Shown here one piece after another: positions 60,520-63,796 of a DNA stretch of 64,000 nucleotides. Each line of letters opens with the position of its first letter. Position 1 is the stretch's first letter. The DNA is from Fimbriimonadaceae bacterium. Its GTDB lineage: Bacteria; Armatimonadota; Fimbriimonadia; Fimbriimonadales; Fimbriimonadaceae. The stretch lies in the NCBI GenBank assembly GCA_019454125.1, contig CP075365.1, positions 1,234,218 through 1,298,217 of the forward strand. Reading direction: 5' to 3'. The notes beneath the pieces are model-generated. The model was not told the origin of the DNA, did not search any database, and was given only the letters and a program-made list of their open reading frames with translations. The position numbers and the translations under genes were made by a program.

Positions 60520-62286
60520 GTGGACGACGTCGACCGGGTTCGCTCAAGGGCTAACCTTGTCGATTTGGTGCGACAGCGGGTCGCGCTCAAGAAAGTCGGT
60601 CGGACGTGGAAGGGGCTCTGTCCCTTCCACGACGATCGCAACCCCTCCTTCCAGGTCGACCAAGAGACGGGTCGCTACCGCTGCTGGTCCTGCGGGGCGA
60701 AGGGCGACTCCTTTGACTGGGTCATGCAGACCGATAAGGTCGATTTCGCCGAGGCTCTGCGCATCCTCGCTGCCCTAACTGGGGTCGAGCTCACTCGGCG
60801 GCAAGGGGAGAAAAAGACCGAGGTCGAACAGTGGCTCAGCGCCATGGAAGCCGCCCAGGACTTCTTTCAGAAGCAGTTCGCCCTTTCCGCGACTGCACGA
60901 GAGTACTGCCAGGCCCGAGGGCTCGACGCGGACACCGTGGCCCAATGGGGCCTTGGCTACGCCCCGGACGTAAACGCAGCCCTCGCCACCGTGTTGCAAA
61001 AGGCCGGGCACAGCCTGGCCGACTGCCGCAAGCTTTTCCTCGTCGAGGCGGATAGCGGCGGGGGCTACTACGACCGCTTTCGCGGTCGGCTCATGTTCCC
61101 GATCCACGATGAACGGGGGCGCCTGGTGGCATTCGGCGGACGCATCCTCGGGGACGGCCACCCCAAGTATGTCAACAGTGGCGATACCCCGCTTTTCTCC
61201 AAGAGCCGCGTGCTCTACGGCTTGGACCGCGCCAAGCCGACCCTCGTCGAAACTCAGACGGCCGTGCTTGTCGAGGGCTATCTGGACGTCATCGCGTGCC
61301 ATCGGGCGGGCGTGACCGGCGCCCTCGCCAGCCTGGGGACTTCCTTGACCGAGGAGCATGCCAAGCTGCTCCGGCGGTGGGCCGAAACCGTGGTCGTCCT
61401 TTATGACAGCGACACGGCGGGCCAGAAGGCTTCGGAGCGGGCGTGCGAGGTGCTTCGGGCAGGAGGGTTGAAGGTGCGGGTGGCGGTGTTACCGGAGGGC
61501 GACGACCCGGACACCCTGCTCCGCAGGGACGGTCCGCAGGCCGTTCTGCGCGCGGTGGAGCAACCCGTCTCCGAGCTTCAATACCGCCTGGTCCAGGCAG
61601 AACGCCGGCACGGCCACACCTCGCAAGAGTTCTGGACCGAAGCGGCAAAGGCACTGGTGGAAGCCACCGACCCGATGGAGCGGGCGGGGGAAGTCGACCG
61701 GCTGGTGGCTCGGTATCCGTTCACCGCCGATCGGGCCTCGGCCCGGCGCGCCGTCGAAGAACTCATCCGTGCCGAGGCCGCCAAGTCGGAACCGCAGGGC
61801 TCGACGCCGAGGACGTCTGCGCGGGGGGGCCGGCGGGCGTTCCGGCCGAGGCTCCACATGGAGATGACCCAGGCCGAGGCGGCGATCCTGCGGTCCCTCC
61901 TGTCCGCCCAGCTTCGGCAGCGTGCCTGGGAGACCTGCTTGCGCGAGGACATCTTCTTCTCCGCGCCGGCCGCCAAGATCGCGGAATCGGTCCGACGGGC
62001 GTTTCCTGACCAGGCTCCCGAGGGCGAGCCGCCCGTTTGGCTGTCGAAGCTGGATCCGGACGATGCGGCGCGGCTGACCGACCTCGTCCGCGAAATGCAC
62101 CTTTCGCCCAGCAAGGAGCGGCTCTTGGCCGAGCACGAGACCTTCGACGGCGCCATGGAGATCCTTGAGGAAAAGCTGGAATCCAGGAAACGGCAGACGG
62201 GGAGCTCGGCCGCCGTCGTCGACATGGACGCCTTCCGCGAATACAGCGCACGCCTGCGCGCGGCCAAGGGCGAGCCCCAAGACTAA
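60520..62286 (+). CDS. dnaG: DNA primase (DnaG)
   Basis: 588 aa. CHC2 zinc finger CPFHDDRNPSF ... CWSCGAKGD, then the TOPRIM catalytic domain with AVLVEGYLDVIACHRAG and VVLYDSDTAGQKASERA, and a variable C-terminal helicase-binding region. Makes RNA primers for the replisome. GTG 60520. Followed by a sigma-70 gene, recalling the rpsU-dnaG-rpoD macromolecular synthesis operon but without rpsU. Confidence 0.97.
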   Translation: MDDVDRVRSRANLVDLVRQRVALKKVGRTWKGLCPFHDDRNPSFQVDQETGRYRCWSCGAKGDSFDWVMQTDKVDFAEALRILAALTGVELTRRQGEKKTEVEQWLSAMEAAQDFFQKQFALSATAREYCQARGLDADTVAQWGLGYAPDVNAALATVLQKAGHSLADCRKLFLVEADSGGGYYDRFRGRLMFPIHDERGRLVAFGGRILGDGHPKYVNSGDTPLFSKSRVLYGLDRAKPTLVETQTAVLVEGYLDVIACHRAGVTGALASLGTSLTEEHAKLLRRWAETVVVLYDSDTAGQKASERACEVLRAGGLKVRVAVLPEGDDPDTLLRRDGPQAVLRAVEQPVSELQYRLVQAERRHGHTSQEFWTEAAKALVEATDPMERAGEVDRLVARYPFTADRASARRAVEELIRAEAAKSEPQGSTPRTSARGGRRAFRPRLHMEMTQAEAAILRSLLSAQLRQRAWETCLREDIFFSAPAAKIAESVRRAFPDQAPEGEPPVWLSKLDPDDAARLTDLVREMHLSPSKERLLAEHETFDGAMEILEEKLESRKRQTGSSAAVVDMDAFREYSARLRAAKGEPQD

Positions 62287-62348
62287 AGTCCATTAAGATT
62301 CCTTTACCGAAAGTCCGAATCGCACGGCTTTTGTCGTATGGTTACTTC

Positions 62349-63251
62349 GTGGGCACGATTCCTGCGCTCCGAAGGCAACCCCGAAGATTTGGGGATGGCG
62401 GCGCGCAAAGAGCCGCGGGTGCGGACGACGCGGTCAAAGCTTGGCTTGAGCGCATCGGCGAGATTCCATTGCTGAGCGCAGAGCAGGAACGGCGCGTCGC
62501 CGAATGCAGCGCGCAGGGCTGCCCAGAATGCCGTCGGGAGTTGATCGAGCACAACCTTCGGCTCGTCGTCGGGATCGCTGCGAAATTTGCGGGGACGGGT
62601 GTCCCCCTCCAGGATCTTATCCAGGAGGGCAATATCGGCCTCATGAACGCGGCCGCGCGTTTCGACCCTTCCCGTGGCCACCGGTTCAGCACGTATGCGA
62701 CCTGGTGGGTCCGGCAAGCGGTGAGCCGGGCGGCGGCCAACCAATCCGGCTTGGTGCGCGTCCCTGCCCATGCCCGCGACGCGAAGGCCCGGCTGCAGCA
62801 TTTGGTCCGGCGAATGGCCCGAGAACTCCGCCGCGAGCCCAGCCTTGAGGAGCTTGGCTCTGCCGCTGGCGCCAGCATCGAGGACGTCCGGTTCCAGCTC
62901 TCTCCCTCGCCGGAGGTCTCGTTTGTCGGCTCAATGGAAGAAGATGCCTGGGAGCGGATCGCGCCGACGACGGCCGGGAACGACTTTGACGTGCTGGTGG
63001 ACGAGGAGGTCGCGCACGTCGTGCGGCGGTTGATCGAGACGTTGCCGACCGCGGAACGCGAGGTGACGATGCGGCGTTACGGCCTCTCCGGCGAGAAGCC
63101 GCAGAGCGTGCGGGCCGTGGCGGAGGCCCTTCGATTAAAGCCGAGCGAGGTGCGCCAGGCGCAGGCAAGGGCTCTTGCGCGGCTCCGCCATCCGATGCTT
63201 TCCTCCGCGATCCGCGACGCCCTCAGCGGAATCTCGTATGGAACGGCGTGA
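62349..63251 (+). CDS. RNA polymerase sigma-70 factor (RpoD/SigA-related, short)
   Basis: 300 aa. Region 1.2 VKAWLERIGEIPLLSAEQER, region 2 HNLRLVVGIAAKFAGTGVPL, IQEGNIGLMNAAARFDPSRG and FSTYATWWVRQAVSRA, region 3, region 4 with YGLSGEKPQSVRAVAEALRL. It lacks the long region 1.1 and non-conserved insert, so it may be an alternative group 2 factor rather than the main RpoD, although it sits behind dnaG. GTG 62349 is preferred to TTG 62331 because TATGGT (62337-62342) lies exactly 6 nt before it. Confidence 0.9.
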   Translation: MGTIPALRRQPRRFGDGGAQRAAGADDAVKAWLERIGEIPLLSAEQERRVAECSAQGCPECRRELIEHNLRLVVGIAAKFAGTGVPLQDLIQEGNIGLMNAAARFDPSRGHRFSTYATWWVRQAVSRAAANQSGLVRVPAHARDAKARLQHLVRRMARELRREPSLEELGSAAGASIEDVRFQLSPSPEVSFVGSMEEDAWERIAPTTAGNDFDVLVDEEVAHVVRRLIETLPTAEREVTMRRYGLSGEKPQSVRAVAEALRLKPSEVRQAQARALARLRHPMLSSAIRDALSGISYGTA

Positions 63252-63796
63252 CCGCGCCTCACGTCGAAGTCCTGCTCGCCACGGGCGAACGCGTCCCCCT
63301 TTCGGCGCTCTATGCCGAGCCGCTGGCGCTCGTCTTTCTGCGGCATTTCGGGTGAGTGTTCTGCCGACGATTGGTCGCGCAGTTGCGCCGACACCCGGAA
63401 CTGAACATCGTGCAGGTCTGCATGGCGACGCCTGAAGACGCCCGGAGCTTCGCCAATAAGTTACGGAGCCCGCATCGATTTATCTGCGACCCGGATGCGA
63501 AGCTTTACGAACGATTCGGGCTTAAGAAGGCGGGGACAGGGCAAATTTTGAACCTGAGGACGGTCTCGCGCTCTCTGGCCGAAGTCGGGATGGGGAATTT
63601 AGGGGGCAAACCAGTAGGGAACCCATATCAAATGCCGGGTGTCTTTGTACTTGCGAGCGACGGCGAGGTCGTATGGAGTTATTACAGTACGGACATCTCA
63701 GATAATCCGCGTGTGGAGGAGATCCGCTCAGCCTTGGAGCGCGCCGTCGGGCAGGATCGCGAAGTGCCCGCAGCTGACCGGCCGTGCAAAGCCTGA
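63248..63796 (+). CDS. peroxiredoxin-like protein (AhpC/TSA_2), probable selenoprotein
   Basis: GTG 63248 overlaps the sigma gene stop (GTGA). Thirty-five codons end LALVFLRHFG, then TGA (63353-63355), then VFCRRLVAQLRRHPELNIVQ in the same frame to the stop at 63796, 182 residues in all. In the AhpC/TSA_2 peroxiredoxin-like family this point is the FLRHFGCxFC motif, so TGA replaces the first Cys, giving UxxC. Just downstream, GTCGCGC (63374-63380) and GCG-C-CGAC (63385-63392) fold around loop AGTT, 25 nt after TGA, within the distance of bacterial SECIS elements. Without Sec the protein would be split and useless. selA, selB and selC are not in the window. Confidence 0.8.
63374..63392 (+). 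promoter_or_regulatory. candidate bacterial SECIS hairpin
   Basis: Stem of seven pairs, GTCG with CGAC and CGC with GCG, with C63388 bulged, closing the loop AGTT with G in its second position. Distance from the TGA to the loop is 25 nt. Both features match the relaxed bacterial SECIS rules. Confidence 0.6.

Follow-up and report, generated by a model that had tools for sequence, protein, structure and literature searches.

A probable SelL-related selenoprotein with an in-frame TGA codon, encoded behind dnaG and a sigma factor gene in a Fimbriimonadaceae bacterium

The window analysed here, a stretch of 64,000 nucleotides from a Fimbriimonadaceae bacterium, contains near its end a redox protein gene in which a TGA codon stands at an active-site position. 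The question is whether this TGA is a stop, an artefact or a selenocysteine (Sec) codon. The available computational evidence, concerning the integrity of the gene, its family and fold, the decoding machinery of the host, the residues found at the TGA column and their co-occurrence with that machinery, and covariation in a downstream hairpin, is that the gene almost certainly encodes a SelL-related thioredoxin-fold selenoenzyme, in which the UGA at 63353-63355 is decoded as Sec36 via SelB and a hairpin with an AGUU loop. The features concerned are as follows.

60520-62286, + strand: dnaG, DNA primase (TIGR01391, 390 bits)
62331-63251, + strand: sigma factor of the sigma-70 family (best-scoring model RpoS with 216 bits, short of its cut-off of 378.7)
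63248-63251, + strand: GTGA overlap, seen in the sequence, of the redox gene's GTG start with the sigma gene's TGA stop
63248-63796, + strand: SelL-related redox protein gene (NF040769, PF13911), 182 amino acids plus TGA stop, with an in-frame TGA as the predicted Sec36
63353-63355, + strand: in-frame TGA, predicted Sec codon (residue 36); the column is Cys or TGA in all 50 family homologues and invariant in alignment A1
63362-63364, + strand: TGC, predicted resolving Cys39 of UxxC, at least 90% conserved in A1
63374-63392, + strand: candidate SECIS element of the bacterial type, a stem of 7 bp in which one C is bulged, capped by the apical loop AGUU (63381-63384), which begins 25 nt past the UGA

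Reading frame, family and fold

When the TGA is read through, 63248-63793 encodes 182 residues including the motif FLRHFGUVFC, with UVFC comprising residues 36-39, and the gene then ends in its own TGA (63794-63796). As the preliminary description had claimed, the in-frame TGA is seen in the sequence at the first Cys of FLRHFGCxFC, i.e. at column 36 of FLRHFG(C/U)xFC, an otherwise invariant Cys that TGA replaces here. Standard gene calling, from GTG 63356, retains a 146-residue ORF only; the catalytic residue is lost, as had been stated, but the loss amounts to 36 of 182 residues (about 20%) and not to the N-terminal third. The fact that standard translation stops at the TGA, with a GTG immediately after it, is compatible with a nonsense-mutated pseudogene or with a gene truncated to the shorter ORF, both of which are, however, highly improbable, because the frame is unbroken across the 182 residues with the active-site and core columns conserved, the 146-residue ORF lacks both the catalytic residue, which is invariant, and the initial beta strands of the fold, and the same TGA is present in multiple independent relatives. 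On the - strand, an inositol monophosphatase gene (PF00459, 108.6 bits) converges on the redox gene and shares 69 bases with its 3' end (63728-63796).

The best family model is that of the SelL-related redox proteins (NF040769, NCBIfam), which scores 138.5 bits over residues 2-162 of 183 (cut-off 120), and the CxxC/UxxC active site belonging to that model is present as UVFC. Matches to PF13911 (AhpC-TSA_2, Pfam; 45.2 bits, gathering cut-off 27) and PF00578 (31.5 bits) were also obtained, NF040769 being a much better model than the latter. The canonical peroxiredoxin motif PxxxTxxC/U is absent, in that the residue three positions ahead of the Sec in FLRHFGUVFC is His instead of Thr. Thus, of the earlier designation as a peroxiredoxin-like selenoprotein, the second word is well supported, whereas for the first SelL-related is the better name. 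The protein, with Sec in place of the first Cys of CxxC, is the same in kind as the bacterial NF040769 proteins, among which it is a divergent representative from the Armatimonadota; its identity to the homologues found is at most 54%.

SelL itself, from aquatic animals and marine bacteria, has a related Prx-like thioredoxin fold, and its motif in the original SelL paper is reportedly UxxU. The two Sec residues of SelL proper are not found here, the second position being TGC (Cys39), so that one Sec (UxxC) stands against two. SelL has been described as a Prx-like protein occurring in prokaryotes and eukaryotes alike (PMC2398784), with two Sec residues (PMC3473315). The PF13911 match is shared with the AhpC-TSA_2/prostamide-PGF synthase (SelU3, PRXL2B) group, and human prostamide/prostaglandin F (PGF) synthase is both the best PDB match by sequence and a top fold match (about 21% identity); the human enzyme, by contrast, is a Cys form (C44/C47). 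The bacterial AhpC/TSA selenoprotein with UxxS (PF13911/cd02970), which is catalogued in PMC9312934 and PMC13188914, belongs to the same Pfam family and likewise has Sec first, but has Ser in the second position where the present protein has Cys. With the Prx-like thiol:disulfide oxidoreductase selenoproteins (PF00578, UxxC/UxxU) it has UxxC and a peroxiredoxin-like fold in common. The SelL-related family is therefore one already modelled by NCBI, with related UxxC/UxxS Prx-like families also catalogued (PMC9312934, PMC13188914), and the novelty is accordingly lower than a first reading implied.

An AlphaFold model, built from 64 window and locus sequences (mean pLDDT 94.7), places residue 36 after a strand (residues 26-30) and just before a helix (residues 37-47). 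Its neighbours in the PDB by Foldseek include PrxQ/Bcp-type peroxiredoxins and ResA, in addition to human PGF synthase.

Selenocysteine machinery and the residue at column 36 among relatives

The host genome, a single contig of 2.65 Mb with a completeness of 97.1%, carries a tRNA-Sec whose anticodon is UCA (78 bits), selA (456 bits), a full-length selB (360 bits) and selD (333 bits). All four of the genes for which a search had been proposed are thus present on the chromosome, and the absence of Sec machinery, which had been named as grounds for rejecting a selenoprotein, does not hold. The selD gene (G000:C1:887229-888206, - strand) has an in-frame TGA of its own, in codons read as UASK, which fits the known SelD motif UxxK (PMC13188914), which brings the selenoprotein genes of this genome to at least two. 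The machinery is common in the Fimbriimonadaceae, where 50 of 85 genomes have a selA match above cut-off.

These 85 genomes were searched for relatives of the redox protein; 53 have a match, and a codon-level alignment was made of 50 homologues. Column 36 is Cys (TGC or TGT) in 39 of them and TGA in 11, with no other residue, which places the TGA at this column beyond chance. The TGA forms, one of them in the same-genus relative G053, all occur in genomes with both selA and selB (11/11), while the Cys forms are divided among genomes with both (18), with one (3) and with neither (18). Among the 18 homologues from genomes without selA and selB there is no TGA (Fisher p 0.004, kinship not corrected). 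The comparison of homologues at the TGA column, which had been put forward as a check, therefore has a clear outcome: TGA is found only where Sec machinery exists.

On a tree of the 50 homologues 10 changes between Sec and Cys are needed, at least six of which are forced by well-supported branches; the two residues have thus been swapped at least six times within the family. The Sec forms do not cluster on this tree (10 changes, compared with a mean of 10.1 after shuffling), which lends no support to vertical inheritance from one Sec origin.

Beyond the family, the DNA pattern FLRHFG-TGA-xFC was found in at least 118 stretches of genome_contigs, from more than 12 phyla, including Chloroflexota, Planctomycetota, Acidobacteriota, Thermodesulfobacteriota, Nitrospirota, Armatimonadota and Actinomycetota; unlike this DNA pattern for FLRHFGUxFC, a single-protein scan of genome_contigs gave no match. 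NF040769 matches were obtained in 75 of 291 Armatimonadota genomes, many of them with one TGA. A scan of plasmids gave weak relatives only, and a scan of viral contigs none with the TGA motif. In two loci, L033 (G073) and L039 (G072), Ala replaces the resolving Cys (ULFA and CLFA, respectively), which suggests a one-selenol or one-thiol variant.

The preliminary description had also noted that a TGC or TGT at 63353-63355 would overturn its proposal. A sequencing or assembly error of this type, making the protein an ordinary CxxC member, would need a single base change only, in a family consisting mostly of Cys forms (39/50), but is very unlikely given the recurrence of TGA at the same column in many independent genomes (10 others in the family, including that of the same genus, besides the stretches elsewhere), its absence from genomes without the machinery, and the presence in the host copy of a UUG Leu codon and a hairpin typical of Sec forms, as described below. 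Decoding of the UGA as a residue other than Sec (Trp, Cys by suppression, or through a reassigned code), with which the continuation of the frame past the TGA would also be consistent, is the least credible alternative, because UGA ends both the redox gene and the sigma gene (63249-63251) and thus serves as an ordinary stop here, the full Sec machinery is present, and none of the aligned homologues has Trp at the column. All three alternatives (sequencing error, pseudogene, recoding) were thus rejected, on the recurrence of the TGA, the intact frame and the Sec machinery.

The hairpin downstream of the UGA

A stem-loop with a G in its apical loop had been claimed 25 nt downstream of the TGA, and is found at 63374-63392 (GUCGCGC-AGUU-GCG(C)CGAC; -8.3 kcal/mol folded alone; the G is loop position 2). 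The published bSECIS model has a loop of 3-9 nt, an upper stem of 4-16 bp, a G at loop position 1 or 2, a spacing of 16-37 nt and an MFE of -7.5 kcal/mol or lower (PMC13188914), and the hairpin agrees with it in every respect, although it is not the global MFE structure of the 48-mer, i.e. when 48 nt of the host sequence are folded freely the MFE pairs differ from those of the hairpin. In an unrestricted test of hairpin energy, 44.5% of synonymous shuffles were equally stable. Because of these two results the SECIS case is built on the spacing, the loop sequence and the covariation seen across relatives, rather than on energy alone; the energy-only test, being uninformative, gave way to tests of codon choice at specific positions, of covariation, and with Cys forms as controls.

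The AGUU loop sits over Gln-Leu codons, the host Leu codon being UUG. The Leu codon (+10) is UUR in 47 of the 48 Sec members with Gln-Leu there, compared with a UUR share of 20% for Leu codons elsewhere in the same Sec genes and with 3/9 at +10 in Cys forms. In a covariation set of 58 Sec forms with Gln followed by Leu, Val, Met or Ile at the loop codons, double changes in the stem (C-G/T-A, G-C/C-G) give a score of 0.36, compared with at most 0.16 for slid registers and at most 0.17 for shuffles. A stable hairpin with a GU loop at this spacing is present in 46 of 121 Sec forms but in one of 39 Cys forms (p 4e-6, kinship not corrected); with Sec forms from the Fimbriimonadaceae alone the proportions are 5/11 and 1/39 (p 0.001, kinship not corrected). 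The AGUU loop at the exact spacing occurs in only five of the 11 Sec forms of the family, the others using different hairpins. One Cys form, L035 (G056), whose genome has selA and selB, keeps an AGUU hairpin at the SECIS position, and this may be a fossil SECIS of a recent Sec-to-Cys change.

Proposed function, gene neighbourhood and significance

Taking the gene as that of a SelL-related selenoenzyme, SelD, SelA and tRNA-Sec would make Sec-tRNA, which SelB, positioned on the AGUU hairpin, would deliver to the ribosome at the UGA, so enabling insertion of Sec36 rather than termination. Sec36, located at the N-terminus of the first active-site helix, would then attack a peroxide or disulfide substrate, with Cys39 resolving it as a selenenylsulfide and a thioredoxin-like partner probably acting as the electron donor that reduces the enzyme again.

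The genes for dnaG, the sigma-70 factor and the redox protein are consecutive on the + strand (60520-63796) in an apparent operon, and the GTGA overlap that had been reported with the sigma gene was located at its junction with the redox gene, from which translational coupling of the two would be predicted. A homologous sigma gene is directly upstream in 29 of the 50 loci, and sigma and/or dnaG in 34; in G053, G004 and G046 there is no sigma gene at this place, and dnaG is the immediate upstream neighbour of the redox gene. The linkage is seen with Cys and Sec forms alike, its plain reading being co-expression with replication and transcription genes. It is conceivable, but improbable, that the redox enzyme functions within the dnaG-sigma operon, translated from and coupled to the sigma message, sensing or repairing oxidation that affects the primase or the sigma factor, and tuned by selenium supply or UGA decoding. 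The host genome has about 30 sigma-70/ECF-type matches, a large number for 2.65 Mb.

A literature search found no selenoprotein work on Armatimonadota, and the present gene is one more well-supported selenoprotein of a known class, now in that phylum. At least 118 such stretches would lose their catalytic residue under standard gene calling. The repeated swaps of Sec and Cys between close relatives, some having selA/selB and others not, provide a good natural set for studying why Sec is kept or lost, and the conserved place of the gene after dnaG and the sigma gene is a lead.
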